Below, piece by piece: positions 40,226 through 45,699 of a stretch of 45,699 nucleotides of DNA. A program made the translations under genes and the position numbers. The stretch spans positions 1 to 45,699 of the forward strand of contig JAFXNQ010000008.1 of the NCBI GenBank assembly GCA_017529425.1, written 5' to 3'. The notes beneath the pieces are model-generated. The model did no database searches. It worked only from the letters and a program-made list of their open reading frames with translations, and was not told where the DNA came from. The number at the start of each line of letters is the position of its first letter. Position 1 is the first letter of the stretch. This DNA comes from Bacteroidales bacterium (GTDB taxonomy: Bacteria > Bacteroidota > Bacteroidia > Bacteroidales > UBA932).

Positions 40226-40654
40226 TTAATTCATTGATTCAACATAATCCCTTCTTACAATGAACTTGCAAGAAACAGGAAGTTTCTGAGCGCCGAGCTC
40301 CAGAGCCTCTTTTGCGATCTGTGCAGGAACACCTTCTGCCTCGAAGATGATGCGACCGGGAGTGATGGGGGCAACGAAGCCTTCAGGGTTACCTTTACCT
40401 TTACCCATACGTACCTCAGCGGGCTTCTTGGTGTAAGGCTTGTCGGGGAACACGCGGATCCACAGATTACCCTCACGTTTCATATGACGGGCTATTGCCT
40501 GACGGGCAGCCTCGATCTGTTGACCGGTGAGCCAGCAGCTTTCCATTGTCTTGAGACCAAATGAACCGAAAGCGAGTTGGTTGCCCCTGCCCGCGTTACC
40601 TTTCATACGGCCTTTCTGCTGCCTTCTAAATTTGGTTTTCTTAGGTTGTAACAT
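40226..40654 (-). CDS. rplP: Ribosomal protein L16, first gene of the truncated cluster
   Basis: A 142-residue protein. It reads [40 protein letters not shown] and [20 protein letters not shown], matching L16 throughout. Normally rpsC and the rest of the S10 cluster lie immediately upstream. Here the upstream DNA is a short leader, a strong promoter and then repeat sequence. The gene is therefore the operon's first member in this genome segment. Confidence 0.98.
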
Positions 40655-40761: not shown

Positions 40762-40974
40762 CTTTTTTACAATATTTTTGAAGATTTTCGACCAAATTTT
40801 TTAACACTGATTACGCTTAATTTCAGTTCGTTACAAACCTGCATCCGCTCGCCGTTTTGTCAGTTTGCGACAAAATGCGCACGACAAAAAGAGGGTATTG
40901 AATTGGGGAGACAAAATTGACATTTACCTGCCACGGGGAGGGGCGACAGGGACGGCTATGAGGCGTGGCACTGT

Positions 40975-41302
40975 GGTCAGTCGGGACAATTTGCCCCGAC
41001 CGGCCACTGATATCGAGGGAAGACCACATTCATCGACACACTAACGTGGCCGGTGATTGTCGTGGCGGGGCGCTTCGCGGTTGTCGACGGAAAGGTTGAG
41101 GCGGTGTGTGAGCGGTTATCCCTCGGCGGAGCCACCGTCAACATGTCGCGAGTGATGCCGGCTGCTGTTGTTCTTGGCGTGTCGTGGCGGGGATCTTCGC
41201 GTTGCCGCCGGCAAGGTTGGGGCGGTGTGTGAGCGGTTATCCTCGGCGGAGCGAAGAGGGCCTGCGGTAGAGCCCCCCGCAGCTCCGACGGGAGATAACC
41301 GC
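40975..41302. repeat. Long GC-rich direct repeat, copy A
   Basis: Begins GGTCAGTCGGGACAATTTGC and runs about 328 bp to ATAACCGC. It matches copy B at 41401-41716 throughout, with many substitutions and small indels. It contains one complete palindromic element at 41233-41302 and a half-copy from about 41112. No convincing gene is visible anywhere in 40800-42440; open frames there fall inside the repeats. Confidence 0.85.
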
Positions 41303-41400
41303 TTACCTCCCAGGCAGCCCTTTTCACGAGCAAACCTCTCTCCTGACAATCACCTGCCACAATAATGACTGGCTGAGACCACTCAAAAGCATGGCGCCGC

Positions 41401-41716
41401 GGTCAGTCGGGACAATTTGCCCCGACCGGCCACAGGAATCTGGGAAAGATCACACCCATCGACACACTATCGTGGCCGGTGAATGTCATGGCGAAGCGTC
41501 AAGATTGAGAGCTGCGGCAGTATGCAGGCAGTTATCCCCGGCGGAGCCGCCGTCAACATGTAGCGAGTGATGCCGGCTGCTATTGTTCTTGGCGTGCTGG
41601 GGCGGGGCGGTCGTGGTTGTCGCCGGCAAGGGTGAGGCGGTATACGGGCGGTTATCCTCGACGGAGCGAGGAGGGCCTCCGGTAGAGCCCCCGCAGCGCC
41701 GACGGGAGATAACCGC
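41401..41716. repeat. Long GC-rich direct repeat, copy B
   Basis: Begins GGTCAGTCGGGACAATTTGC, identical to copy A for its first 35 bp, and ends with the palindromic element at 41648-41716. A further 60 bp after it (CTCTCCGTAAC to CACGGGCAGAAGC) are shared with the sequence that follows the third palindrome at 42126-42195, but not with copy A. Confidence 0.85.
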
Positions 41717-41986
41717 CGCCCTCTCCGTAACACGTCCATTAGCAGCCGTATCTTTCACTGAGACGCACGGGCAGAAGCCTTAAGCTTGCAAAGGGTGCTT
41801 CGCTCTGTCGCCAGCAGTCCGGCCAAAGCGCCCCTACGTTTTGGCAGGGGCTCCACGAAACTTTGGCGGGAGCGCAACCTTTTTCTTTCCTAATGTCTTA
41901 GGCGCCTCCACTGCCGCGGGGACGGGTGTGACCGCCGCGTATTTCCTGGCGCTTTGGCAGGACAGGGCAAACATCTCCCTACTGCT

Positions 41987-42102
41987 GGCCACAAGATGAA
42001 TCTGGGTGCTGTCTCGTTCATCATGTGTCCATTAATCCCGACAAAAGCGGAAAAGCGAAACCTCTCGATGAACCAGAAGGCCCCGCCATTCATCTTGTGG
42101 CC
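41987..42102. repeat. 15-bp perfect inverted repeat pair
   Basis: GGCCACAAGATGAAT at 41987-42001 faces its exact complement ATTCATCTTGTGGCC at 42088-42102, enclosing 86 bp. No transposase or gene is visible inside. It may be the ends of a small non-autonomous element or a large hairpin. Confidence 0.7.
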
Positions 42103-42267
42103 CAGAAACCGGAGAGAGCAGTGAGGCGGTTATTCTCGGCGGGGCGAGGAGGGCCTTCGGTAGTGCCCCCCGCAGCGCCGACGGGAGATAACCGCCTCCC
42201 TCTCCGTAACGTCCATTAACAGCTGGCAGCCGTAATCTTTCACTGAGCCGCACGGGCAGAAGCTTCC

Positions 42268-42445
42268 GCTTGCAAATGGTTTGTTGCTAACTCTGCGTTC
42301 GGCTCCCCTCCATTCAAAAACGCCTATGCTCGGGGACTCGCTTCGCTCAGACATCCCTCGCATGGCCGGCGTTTTTTTCGATACGGGCCGCTTCGCTTTC
42401 GCTCAGCAACGCCTCACTCCGAAAATCGCACAAACCATTTCAAGC
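42268..42445. repeat. Element of about 178 bp with imperfect terminal inverted repeats
   Basis: GCTTGCAAATGGTTTG at 42268-42283 matches the complement of CAAACCATTTCAAGC at 42431-42445 apart from one extra C. The right arm overlaps the last base of the reverse transcriptase gene. The terminator-like hairpin listed next lies inside. Confidence 0.55.
42316..42376. terminator. Likely bidirectional terminator downstream of the DGR
   Basis: AAAAACGCC at 42316-42324 pairs perfectly with GGCGTTTTT at 42368-42376, with inner ATGC/GCAT pairing. On the plus strand it is followed by two more Ts, and on the minus strand the stem ends in five Us. It lies about 70 bp after the reverse transcriptase stop and would end the DGR transcript. 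Confidence 0.65.
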
Positions 42446-43914
42446 TACGGCCTTTTCTGCCCGGCAAATGAGTCTCCGCACTGATTCGAGGAATACCTTG
42501 GCCGATATATTAACGTGTGTCTGGTGTAGTAGCCTGTGCTCAGTGTCGGGCGGAGGGGGCCGGCAAGCCAGCGGCGGCGGATGTTGTAGGAGCGGTAGTG
42601 GGATGTGATGCCGAGGAAGGAGTTGATGGACTGCTCCGGATGCGCCGGGGGATAATGACTCCACGATGCCATCTTACCCTCCATTCGCCTCAGGCAGCGG
42701 CTGCCGACGTACCGGCGGAACGGCTTAAGGTAAGCCCCCAGGAATTCTACGCCACGGTAGGCGGAGAAGATCGCTATCTTGTTACGGCTCAGCGACAGGC
42801 CGAGGCGGCTCTGCAGAAAGGCGTCCGCCATGGGGATGATTCTCCTGAGTTCCTTTGGCGAGCTGCCTACGACATACGCATCGTCTACGTATCGGCCATA
42901 CCGGCATCCTCTCGCAAGGTTACCAGATGAGTCGCCGACTACGTAACGGCCATAGCGGGCTCCGTTCGCAAATTCCTCCTGTAAGTCACCTATAACACAA
43001 GTGTCACCCACATTACGGCCTCCTTGCATATTCTCCTCCGATGAGCCATCTACGGCATATGTGTCATCTCCAAAATATCCATTCCGGCAGCCTCGCACAA
43101 GTTCCCCAGATGATTCTCCTGCTACGTTCGCCTCAGCTACATACCTTCCCTCTCCCACAAGGGACACCATATACTTGTCAAAGACATCCATATACACGTT
43201 GCTGAACAGCTGCGATGTAAGGTTGCCGATGGGGAGTCCGCAGCCCGGAGGGGAATGGAACAGGCTCTTGCTATCCGGCAGACCCTCCCAATCGGCTATC
43301 GAGCCGCGCCGGTGGCAGTTCTTCGTGGGATCGTCTTGTATGATGACCTCCATCAGGTACTTTACGAGGGGGTAGTCTATCTGCGCGCGGAACGGCTCAA
43401 TTGCCTCCAGGCTGAGTTCGAACAACCGCTGCCTGTTTATGTGCATGAAGTATCCCTGGATATCCAGCTTGAGGATATAACAAGGTTGTGAATAATTGCA
43501 GGACTCCCTGCGGATGCTCTCCTCCAATCTGTATATCCCGTCGTGGGTTCCGCGGCCGGGAATGCAGGAATAGCTGTCGCGGATAAAGGTCGGTATCAGC
43601 AGCGGGGCGATATAGTTGTACAGCAGGTGATGCACCACCCTGTCCCTGAACTGCGCGGCGAACACCTCCCTCATCTTGGGGTCGTGAATGATGAAGCAGG
43701 TCGATGGACCGGGATGATACCTCCCTGCGAGAATCGTATCCCGCAGGCGGACCAGTTCCACATCCAGGTCGCGTTCAAACCGGAGCTGGTAGTCGCGGCG
43801 GCGCTTGTGCCGGCGGGCATCCCGGTATGCCCGGTACAGATCCAGCAGCAGTTGCTGAGGCGGCGTTTCAAAGGCAGGAGCAACTGGCTGGAGATGTTTC
43901 ACTATTTCACTCAT
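42445..43914 (-). CDS. DGR reverse transcriptase with expanded catalytic region
   Basis: A 489-residue enzyme that copies the TR RNA into mutagenised cDNA. Motifs are in the right order: RDSYSCIPGRGTHDGI (about 112-127), motif A LKLDIQGYF with Asp151, motif B GLPIGNLTSQLFSNVYM (about 226-242, the DGR-type form), motif C RYVDDAYVV with Asp344 and Asp345, then LGLSLSRNKI and VEFLGAYLKPFRR. Between motif B and motif C, where relatives have about 15-20 residues, there are about 80 extra residues (256-338) made of degenerate copies of the motif C segment. All catalytic residues remain, so activity is plausible. The start is 168 nt downstream of TR. After the thumb it ends with about 80 residues that I do not recognise. 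Confidence 0.95.
   Translation of the reverse strand: MSEIVKHLQPVAPAFETPPQQLLLDLYRAYRDARRHKRRRDYQLRFERDLDVELVRLRDTILAGRYHPGPSTCFIIHDPKMREVFAAQFRDRVVHHLLYNYIAPLLIPTFIRDSYSCIPGRGTHDGIYRLEESIRRESCNYSQPCYILKLDIQGYFMHINRQRLFELSLEAIEPFRAQIDYPLVKYLMEVIIQDDPTKNCHRRGSIADWEGLPDSKSLFHSPPGCGLPIGNLTSQLFSNVYMDVFDKYMVSLVGEGRYVAEANVAGESSGELVRGCRNGYFGDDTYAVDGSSEENMQGGRNVGDTCVIGDLQEEFANGARYGRYVVGDSSGNLARGCRYGRYVDDAYVVGSSPKELRRIIPMADAFLQSRLGLSLSRNKIAIFSAYRGVEFLGAYLKPFRRYVGSRCLRRMEGKMASWSHYPPAHPEQSINSFLGITSHYRSYNIRRRWLAGPLRPTLSTGYYTRHTLIYRPRYSSNQCGDSFAGQKRP
42895..43149 (-). repeat. Degenerate tandem repeat of the YVDD segment inside the reverse transcriptase gene
   Basis: Four inserted units precede the true catalytic unit. 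In protein they start GRYVAEANVAGESSGEL, GYFGDDTYAVDGSSEEN, VGDTCVIGDLQEEF and GRYVVGDSSGNLARGCR; the genuine one is GRYVDDAYVVGSSPKEL. Unit lengths in DNA are 69, 69, 60, 54 and about 60 nt, all multiples of three. Shared DNA words include GGCCGTTACGTAG/GGCCGATACGTAG and GGATGCCGGTATGGCCG/GGCTGCCGGAATGG. Only the second inserted unit keeps a DD pair. Confidence 0.88.
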
Positions 43915-44081
43915 CGAAGGAATGACACATGCTTGTCAAAGACAAGAACTGTCGGCTGGCTGCGTTTAAGAATCTCGTTCATTTCAGAAATGATACATAC
44001 GAGCGGAAGGCAGAATCCCGCTCATTTCTGATGCGACGCATACGTGTCAAAGATGGGAGCGGAGCCCTTCAAGCGTAAATA

Positions 44082-44269
44082 CTGAAACAGCGCGGACTGA
44101 TTGCCCGTTGTAGCGGTTGTTGTTGTTCCTGTTGACTTCATCCGAATTGAAGTTCACGTTCCACGCGTTGTTCGGGTTGTCCGTATTGAGGGAAGAAGAC
44201 CAGTAGTTGCCGTTGGAGGCCGCATTGTTGAGGTTGGTATTGTTCCGGTTGCCAGCGGCGGGCAGGAAT
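44082..44269 (-). other. DGR template repeat (TR)
   Basis: 188 nt, aligned without gaps to the VR at 45282-45469 (constant offset 1200). On the coding strand it reads as an Asn-rich version of the target C-terminus, with many AAC and AAT codons (GNRNNTNLNN at the start, NRNNNNRYNGQSVRAVS at the end). AAC codons are the hallmark of DGR templates because adenine mutagenesis then gives many residues but no stop codons. It lies between avd and the reverse transcriptase gene and would be the core of the structured DGR RNA. Two perfect hairpins (6-bp stems at 44286-44301 and 44300-44317) sit just upstream, towards avd. Confidence 0.97.
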
Positions 44270-44428
44270 CCTCTTACCCCTTATGCCGGCCGCCTGGCCG
44301 GGGGCCTCGCAGCCCCCGCTATCGTTTTCCGAAGGGCGGGACTCCCGATTCTTTGGGAATGAAACCCGCTGACCCCGGACGGGCCGGACTTCATTGAATT
44401 TACTTGCGCGCTCTGCCGCCAGCGCCCA

Positions 44429-44782
44429 TTATGGCGGTGACGGCACTCCGGCGCCTTCCTTGTTCTTTGACAGGCTCCGCTCCCAGTTTGACAGTTGTCT
44501 TATTATATCTTCAGCCATTTCGAGGAAATAAACGTATCGTTTGTCGGGCAGGACTTTGAGGTCACTCAACAGTCGCAGGCTCAGCTCCACGTCCATCATG
44601 GCGAGCCTTGCCTTGCGTACATTCAACTCCCTGTCTTCGCCCTTCCCGGCGAGGGTCACCGACAGCAGCGCTCTCTTTGTTACGAGCCGGATATCCTCCC
44701 CCAGCGAGTAACGGTAATTCCGCCCGAGCCTTGAGGCCATCTCGGTTGCCTCCACCGCTATCCGATACACTGCCCCGTACAC
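44429..44782 (-). CDS. avd: Avd-like DGR accessory protein
   Basis: 117 residues from a GTG at 44782, predicted to be almost entirely helical (EATEMASRLGRNYRYSLGED, LNVRKARLAMMDVELSLRLL, KRYVYFLEMAEDIIRQLSNW), as in the four-helix-bundle Avd family that forms a pentamer and binds the reverse transcriptase and RNA. The frame has no ATG before Met15 of this version. Upstream it stays open to the G7 tract at 44900-44906 and reads YKQLIFNELIDFAPYEEWRK, then SFNSLPVYGAVYRI, so the true product may begin further upstream or by frameshift from the preceding ORF. It is followed by TR. Confidence 0.88.
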   Translation of the reverse strand: MYGAVYRIAVEATEMASRLGRNYRYSLGEDIRLVTKRALLSVTLAGKGEDRELNVRKARLAMMDVELSLRLLSDLKVLPDKRYVYFLEMAEDIIRQLSNWERSLSKNKEGAGVPSPP

Positions 44783-44894
44783 CGGCAGGCTGTTGAAAGA
44801 TGTATCCCTGCCCGATGCACGGGGCTGCGCTACAAACCCTTTTCGCCATTCCTCGTATGGCGCAAAGTCTATTAACTCATTGAATATAAGCTGT

Positions 44895-45149
44895 TTATAC
44901 CCCCCCAGACGTGTTTTCCGCCACCTGGTATCCGGCGGAAAACTTGTCTAACGATGACTGGGGGAACCCGACGCTCAGCAGCGGTCCTTCCAGACCCTTG
45001 AGTTCTCGAGCGCTCACCTTGAACGGATGAACCCTTGTGCACAGGAGCCACGCGCTCTTCTGGTACGCCTTATAGAAGGCACCCTCCGGGTATAGGTAAA
45101 CCCTACCCGGATTGGCGTCTTCCATTGTGCATATTTCAAGTTTAGTCAT
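44895..45149 (-). CDS. MutS-domain-I-like DGR accessory ORF, probably frameshifted
   Basis: 84 residues: MTKLEICTMEDANPGRVYLY, then PEGAFYKAYQKSAWLLCTRV, FKVSARELKG and LSVGFPQSSLDKF. The GxFYKAYxxSA block resembles the N-terminal mismatch-recognition domain of MutS (GDFYELF..DA). Short MutS-like ORFs are known beside DGRs, including in Bacteroidota. The frame ends at TAA 44895, right after a run of seven Gs. A slip of one base enters the avd frame at YKQLIFNELIDFAPYEEW, whose sequence looks like the natural end of this protein family. The 84-residue product is therefore likely incomplete. It starts about 100 bp after the target-gene hairpin. Confidence 0.7.
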   Translation of the reverse strand: MTKLEICTMEDANPGRVYLYPEGAFYKAYQKSAWLLCTRVHPFKVSARELKGLEGPLLSVGFPQSSLDKFSAGYQVAENTSGGV

Positions 45150-45245
45150 CCGAAAATTATTTTGACGGCCTTACGGCCGTTTGGGTCGAGGGGCTGCCGC
45201 CCCAATGACAAGAGTTTTTGATGATGCACGCATGCGCATGCATCT

Positions 45246-45274
45246 GACTCGCTGGGCTTACGCCCTTGCGAGTC
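45246..45274 (-). promoter_or_regulatory. DGR hairpin with GNRA loop after the VR
   Basis: GACTCGC (45246-45252) pairs with GCGAGTC (45268-45274). Inside, GGGC pairs with GCCC around a tetraloop that reads GTAA on the coding strand, a GNRA type. It begins 2 bp after the target stop. Bordetella phage and other DGRs carry a similar hairpin or cruciform shortly after the VR that raises homing efficiency. A second palindrome, GCATGCGCATGC, follows at 45230-45241. Confidence 0.85.
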
Positions 45275-45276
45275 TT

Positions 45277-45699
45277 TTATTCTGAAACAGCGCGGACTGA
45301 TCGCCCGTTGCAGCGGTCGTTGTAGTACCTGCCGACTCCATCCGAACTGAAGTCCACGAACCACGCGCGGTCCGGGTCGCCCGTATAGAGGGAAGAAGAC
45401 CAGTAGGAACCGTAGGAGGCCGCACCGTCGAGGCCGGTATAGTACCGGTAGCCAGCGGCGGGCAGGAATATGCTGTTTTGATTTGTACCAGTTACCAGAT
45501 AACCGTTTATTCCGTTCTGTGTTGTCCATGTCCAGTTACACTCGGTTCTTAACTCTGTCCACTCTGCATCGGTAGGCATACGCCATGTACCGCCCCAATT
45601 GACTGCTGCTGCGTCATCCTCGGGATCTAATACGGTGTTGTTGTCAACGTTACCATAGGAAGAGTTTGTGCAATACTTCGTCTGTGTGTCGTAAGAACC
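45277..45699 (-). CDS. DGR target protein, C-terminal part (partial)
   Basis: 140 residues are visible, open to the window edge at the N-terminal side. WGGTWRMPTDAEWTELRTE, IFLPAAGYRYYTG, YWSSSLYTGD and SVRAVSE match the formylglycine-enzyme/C-type-lectin-like major paralogous domain (TIGR02145-like), a usual DGR target fold in Bacteroidota. The final 63 residues are encoded by the VR, so the surface loops around GYRYYTG and the SSDGVGRYYND area are variable. The N-terminal part, probably with a signal peptide, lies outside the window. The likely role is variable ligand binding at the cell surface. Confidence 0.93.
   Translation of the reverse strand, partial: GSYDTQTKYCTNSSYGNVDNNTVLDPEDDAAAVNWGGTWRMPTDAEWTELRTECNWTWTTQNGINGYLVTGTNQNSIFLPAAGYRYYTGLDGAASYGSYWSSSLYTGDPDRAWFVDFSSDGVGRYYNDRCNGRSVRAVSE
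45282..45469 (-). other. DGR variable repeat (VR)
   Basis: 188 nt at the 3' end of the target gene. Compared with TR on the coding strand there are 30 differences, of which 29 are at TR adenines: 17 A to G, 10 A to T and 2 A to C. About 56 adenines are present in TR, so roughly half are changed. The remaining difference is a silent C to T in a Gly codon. The GC-rich 3' end (GGGCGATCAGTCCGCGCTG) has only one change and corresponds to the initiation-of-homing region. Confidence 0.97.

Follow-up and report, generated by a model that had tools for sequence, protein, structure and literature searches.

We analyzed a 45,699-nucleotide contig from a member of the Bacteroidales (JAFXNQ010000008.1 of assembly GCA_017529425.1; hereafter the window), which carries at one end a diversity-generating retroelement (DGR) whose reverse transcriptase (RT) contains an insert of degenerate tandem copies of its own motif-5 (YVDD) segment. 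We put the probability at roughly 0.8 that a functional DGR, with an RT that tolerates this repeat loop, is the best explanation of the data as a whole. DGRs, remote targets, and the MutS-like (MSL) and Avd accessory proteins are already known from earlier reports (PMC6642488, PMC10053308, PMC4891356, PMC12875486, PMC8144416).

Divergence of the template and variable repeats

The features that define the element are as follows.

44082..44269, minus strand: template repeat (TR), from direct-repeat search and TR/VR alignment
45282..45469, minus strand: variable repeat (VR), from direct-repeat search, TR/VR alignment and strain comparison
42445..43914, minus strand: DGR reverse transcriptase, 489 aa, from its open reading frame (ORF), profile and structure matches and a tree

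An independent search of positions 42000–45699 returned the TR/VR pair as the top direct repeat. A sequence-only reading of the window had counted 30 differences between the two copies, 29 at template adenines and one silent, and our recount over the 188 positions gives the same result. The 29 changed sites are drawn from 56 template adenines on the coding (minus) strand, and the sole other change is a C>T substitution at a third codon position (GGC>GGT). Changes at adenine comprise 17 A>G, 10 A>T and 2 A>C, and they fall at first (18/29) or second (11/29) codon positions and never at the third. The difference between A and non-A sites is highly significant (Fisher test, p = 1.8e-17). The repeat extends 3 nucleotides beyond the 188, which adds one mismatch (T>A).

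The orthologous VR of a related cassette from the same genus (L023) differs at 29 sites, 26 of which are TR adenines (Fisher test, p = 2.9e-13). This comparison and the A-biased TR/VR change support the earlier proposal that the element is a real DGR that rewrote its target. In each of three related genomes, the cis VR agrees with its own TR at informative non-A sites (10/10, 9/10 and 10/10) and differs from it at A sites. The case for a working DGR is an evolutionary one.

Genes on the minus strand are arranged in the order target, MSL accessory, avd, TR and RT. The best match of the RT among solved structures, by both sequence and model, is the BPP-1 DGR RT, and in our tree it groups with RTs of other such cassettes. 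An Avd-type accessory fits in position and size, although its frame is broken in this assembly, and the VR lies at the 3′ end of a ligand-binding-type target and is followed by a hairpin. The spacing from motif 4 to YxDD departs from the standard RT layout, which is not a defining feature of DGRs. Earlier designation of the element as complete holds for the gene order and for the RT ORF, but is too strong in that the contig end truncates the target and, in this assembly, msl and avd lie in different reading frames.

In the mechanism we propose, the RT with MSL-Avd would copy the TR RNA, making errors at adenines, and the A-mutated cDNA would be written into VRs located at the 3′ end of genes for surface lipoproteins. 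Besides the VR in cis there would be at least one in trans, and a pair of hairpins downstream would mark every VR. MSL-Avd presumably acts as the cofactor of this BPP-1-like DGR.

A repeat insert in the reverse transcriptase

Three segments of the RT are considered here.

43192..43221, minus strand: motif 4, LTSQLFSNVY, residues 232–241
42901..43155, minus strand: insert, residues 254–338 (81 extra), degenerate tandem copies of the YVDD segment
42880..42891, minus strand: last, intact YVDD, residues 342–345, the presumed catalytic copy

The distance from the motif-4 SQ to the YxDD of motif 5 is 24–27 residues in all RTs (137 of 137) that could be measured outside a trio formed by the window RT and those of L023 and L024, a further cassette of the genus. 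This set derives from 64 genome ORFs and 74 IMG/VR sequences, one of them truncated; the count leaves out ORFs with no motif-4 match (L114, the L132 piece and L091) and the truncated RT L132, and two RTs of normal spacing show a further loose match downstream (L119 at 102, L190 at 49). The accompanying alignment, A2, includes 50 of the 55 usable IMG/VR rows; 7 of the 62 rows listed were unusable (6 with stops, 1 out of length). In contrast, the intact YVDD of the window and L023 RTs is found 106 residues after the motif-4 SQ, and the L024 RT carries two intact YVDD motifs, at 25 and 68, with 43 extra residues.

In the window and L023 RTs, the insert consists of five units that are degenerate copies of RYGRYVDDxYVVGSSPxEL, and L024 has a different array, of three units, that is also in frame. 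The sequence-only reading had missed this insert. At the DNA level, the similarity between units of the window (W) and L024 (L) exceeds all 300 codon shuffles for the pairs W4-W5, W1-W4, W1-W5, W2-L1, W5-L1 and L1-L3. The three insert-bearing RTs form one clade (support 100/100), which points to a single origin. The motif-5 segment was probably tandemly duplicated in frame in the ancestor of these three same-genus genomes. The last YVDD copy, which is connected to the helix that comes after this segment in every DGR RT, would be the catalytic one, and the copies upstream of it would by now be a flexible loop, evolving near-neutrally and varying in copy number, that the enzyme tolerates.

Rates of nonsynonymous (dN) and synonymous (dS) change were estimated by the Nei-Gojobori method. 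Between the window and L024, dN is 0.044 and dS 0.426 for RT residues 1–250, and dN is 0.061 and dS 0.555 from the last YVDD on. Insert units W2 and L1, for comparison, give a dN of 0.41 and a dS of 0.43 over 24 codons. These values indicate a constrained core and a nearly free insert. AlphaFold models are confident for the core and for the hairpin of the last copy, and show the insert as disordered (residues 257–331); in the L024 model, disorder extends over residues 256–298, which include its first YVDD.

Several observations weigh against this interpretation. Some unit pairs are not significant when taken singly, with shuffles scoring as high in 39/300 cases for W2-W5, 113/300 for W3-W5, 199/300 for W2-W4 and 294/300 for L2-L3; because W2-W5 and W3-W5 fall in this group, units 2 and 3 are tied to the others only through L024. 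The near-neutral ratio for the insert comes from just 24 codons, and L1 versus L3 within L024 yields a dN of 0.26 and a dS of 1.6 over 19 codons. The latter comparison suggests that both YVDD copies of L024 have long been kept. The alignments used by AF2 already match the last YVDD to those of other RTs, such that the models are consistent with our reading and not independent of it. The cassettes are also mosaics of nearly identical and divergent blocks, and recombination therefore blurs timing. Finally, msl and avd of the window do not share a reading frame.

This frameshift, and the fact that the 81 extra residues adjoin the active site, would fit an element in which the insert wrecked the RT, leaving a recent fossil with VRs that an earlier, still intact enzyme made last. 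We consider this improbable, since purifying selection on the RT core and the last YVDD is strong, the VR of both insert-bearing lineages keeps to its own TR, and the ORF is open in all three genomes. It is slightly easier to imagine, though still unlikely, that the insert is functional in itself, perhaps as a loop that is regulatory or binds Avd/RNA and adjusts error rate or processivity. The insert is kept open in the three genomes, L024 retains two intact YVDD copies, and units 2–4 of the window and L023 differ at only 1 of 183 nucleotides. However, this near-identity occurs among other nearly identical blocks and does not require selection, the one unit that could be tested has a near-neutral ratio, copy number changes between relatives, and disorder is predicted.

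Errors of assembly or sequencing might in principle have produced both the insert and the poly-G length described below, as all three genomes are drafts (L023 and L024 are from metagenome-assembled genomes) and homopolymers are error-prone. We rate such an origin as very improbable. The five units of the insert are common to two separately deposited genomes, and its counterpart in the third is a different in-frame array. Moreover, TRF finds no perfect tandem array in the insert, the copies of which are degenerate, and none so near-identical as to be liable to collapse. The poly-G lengths are less secure than the insert.

Similar inserts were sought elsewhere. A search of IMG/VR with the window RT gave no confirmed relative, a DNA pattern for GCRYGRYVDD had 0 matches, and tblastn matches to phages and plasmids were all below 60% identity among the best 20 of 86 phage and best 20 of 57 plasmid records. 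A literature search of partial coverage found no report of a DGR RT with tandem copies of motif 5. Provided that the enzyme works as we infer, the most conserved catalytic segment of an RT can be duplicated in frame, with one copy kept while the others decay beside the active site. Such a case would offer a natural test of how far the palm domain can be altered and, in L024, of which of two intact YVDD motifs the enzyme uses.

The last residues of the RT (window 42445–42480) and its 3′ flank differ completely among the window, L023 and L024, the rest being 88–97% identical. This divergence places an edge of the cassette at about this point.

The MSL-Avd gene and its poly-G tract

The accessory region comprises the following features.

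44895..45149, minus strand: MSL accessory, 84 aa in this assembly, forming the N-terminal half of a fused msl-avd gene
44900..44906, minus strand: G7 tract where the msl and avd frames part (G9 in L023, G10 in L024)
44429..44893, minus strand: linker and Avd reading frame, within which the only ORF with a start codon is GTG 44782–44429

The sequence-only reading had an accessory ORF and a separate avd. Their order stands, but the two read as one fused gene split at the G7 tract. L023 encodes a single 240-aa MSL and Avd protein, which matches DivGenRetAVD with an E value of 3.2e-5, a score that falls short of the cut-off. In the window, the match of the accessory ORF to MutS_I is weak (17.6 bits versus a cut-off of 20.6), and that of the Avd reading frame to bAvd (17.8 bits) is under the cut-off of 40. 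In its weak MutS_I match the protein resembles the MSL (MutS_I, PF01624) DGR accessory characterized in one report (PMC10053308). Unlike that accessory, the protein is fused to Avd in L023 and 8 relatives, and is interrupted by a poly-G tract in this lineage.

Among 29 loci, msl and avd are fused in these 9, split in 12, and represented by msl only in 8. In 10 of the 12 split loci the parts are 241–334 nucleotides apart, as expected of true separate genes. The parts in the window and L024 are 94 nucleotides apart, like those of fused loci, and differ by tract length: the fused frame is present with G9 (L023) only, and is broken with G7 (window) and G10 (L024). Apart from the G7 tract, the window contains no G or C run of 7 or more. 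Five such runs were counted in 60,954 bases of other loci, the G9 and G10 tracts among them, and 8 of the 9 fused loci lack any G or C run of 6 or more. Between the window and L024, the Avd part downstream of the tract has a dN of 0.053 and a dS of 0.578, and the linker a dN of 0.05 and a dS of 0.205. Constraint on both parts between two frame-broken genomes suggests that the fused frame has mostly been in use.

A coding homopolymer whose length shifts the frame between related genomes is characteristic of phase-variable loci, and the poly-G tract is a candidate phase-variable switch. The frame break might reflect slippage, phase variation, restart at GTG 44782 or sequencing error. More speculatively, and with rather long odds, the element may be a phase-variable mutator in which poly-G slippage switches MSL-Avd on and off and the changing copy number of the RT motif array tunes the enzyme. 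If so, an RT could carry several copies of its own active-site hairpin, and hypermutation would be under two mutable controls. A literature search, again of partial coverage, found no paper on a poly-G tract in a DGR accessory gene. The length-variable tract in a fused accessory gene raises the question of whether bacteria switch targeted hypermutation by phase variation.

Targets, hairpins and flanking sequence

The target and the hairpins that follow its VR are located as follows.

45277..45699, minus strand: C-terminal part of the target, Lcl_C/FISUMP (C-type-lectin-like), 5′ part lost at the contig end, from profile search
45246..45274, minus strand: first hairpin after the VR, 7-bp stem, 4-bp inner stem and GTAA loop
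45223..45244, minus strand: second hairpin after the VR, 9-bp stem and 4-nt loop

The target had been described as lectin-like, which is right in kind, but the fragment scores below the curated cut-offs (33.1 versus 34.9 bits for Lcl_C, and 22.7 versus 33.9 bits for FISUMP). The related L023 cassette encodes a whole target of 528 aa. From signal sequences judged by eye, the targets are probably exported as lipoproteins.

The search for further VRs that the sequence-only reading had called for returned seven TR matches in the genome of the window, the TR itself included. The match on contig C17 (5198–5388) is a fresh VR, with 28 differences at A and one non-A difference, at the boundary, and it lies at the end of a protein of 1315 aa that contains a DUF4988 domain. 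Matches on C6 and C68 look older, with 15 non-A differences from the TR in the C6 copy and 13 and 20 in the two C68 copies. They fit the local TR no better than another TR, and we suggest that they are older copies or targets of another TR. In a related genome, G025, there are 23 TR matches, and among the eleven non-TR matches scored, the cis VR alone is fresh. A match on C38 was rejected as a VR, having 17 A and 35 non-A differences and 16 gap columns relative to the TR.

It is conceivable that the remote VRs are ordinary FISUMP paralogues rather than DGR targets, given at least 13 non-A differences from the TR in the remote copies of C6, C68 and G025 and the failure of the C6 and C68 copies to follow the local TR. 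We hold this to be unlikely, although less so than the alternatives for the insert. The C17 VR differs almost wholly at adenines, changed sites in the C6 copy are still enriched at A (34/57 versus 15/134 at non-A sites), and hairpin pairs are found after the copies on C17, C6 and one of the two on C68. The multi-target DGR of Treponema denticola likewise has a single TR and RT, several remote lipoprotein targets, and older remote VRs that fit another TR; its accessory, however, is HRDC, and the available part of that report does not mention an RT insert (PMC4891356).

MSL-like ORFs with no Avd match directly follow the hairpins at remote sites on C6 (L066 5742–6000, plus strand), C68 (L065, minus strand after VRb) and C19 (L207 231–480), as if parts of the cassette had been duplicated. 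There is no such ORF at C17.

The hairpin pair is present after 10 of 11 VRs examined, the exception being the inner C68 copy, and after 0 of 3 TRs, two of which have a short inverted repeat further on. In an alignment of ten sites (nine distinct), 92.2% of cells are paired, and 7 of 20 pairs are changed on both sides, which exceeds every slid control. A covariance model finds 8 sites in the window's genome (4 of them part of its training set, and the one on C8 weak), 5 in G025, 2 in G020 and 1 in G015 among 26 genomes of the genus. A regex search for FISUMP-type proteins beside the matches at C17:2183, C21, C19 and C8 found none, and these are not claimed as targets. Rfam yields only matches below threshold (RT-7, 26.4 versus 116.8 bits; GlsR9, 22.5 versus 95). 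Together, the fresh C17 VR and the covarying hairpin pair provide a handle for listing the DGR targets of a genome.

Phage VRs are known to be followed by a single hairpin, the loop of which is GRNA (PMC3240598). The DGR of Bordetella phage BPP-1 resembles the present element in this hairpin after the VR, in RT fold and sequence, in its Avd-like protein and in A-specific TR/VR differences. Unlike BPP-1, the element described here has an 81-residue motif-5 repeat insert in the RT, an MSL domain fused to Avd, two hairpins instead of one, a GTAA loop versus the reported GRNA consensus, and several FISUMP lipoprotein targets in a bacterial chromosome.

A hairpin-pair match in G015 (C32:5733–5802, L201) occurs in a genome of the genus with no related RT match at E 1e-20, and is possibly a relic of a lost DGR.

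In the flanking sequence, the S10/spc ribosomal operon is in two parts, with a break between rpsC and rplP: rplP is at window 40226–40654 and rpsC on contig C16 of the same genome, G000 (L214 2472–3227). A chimeric contig was suspected for this reason, but the split looks like a lineage trait. Within flanks of up to 1.5 kb, some of them short, rpsC was not found at 20 of 20 rplP loci of the genus, in a survey that had no positive control and in which 6 of 26 genomes had no rplP match. The stretch between rplP and the RT (window 40900–42400) is low in coding content and has imperfect repeats, such as 42120–42133 with 42188–42201 inverted and similar GGCGG/AACCGCC blocks at about 41100–41720. 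Part of this stretch also adjoins the RT in L024.
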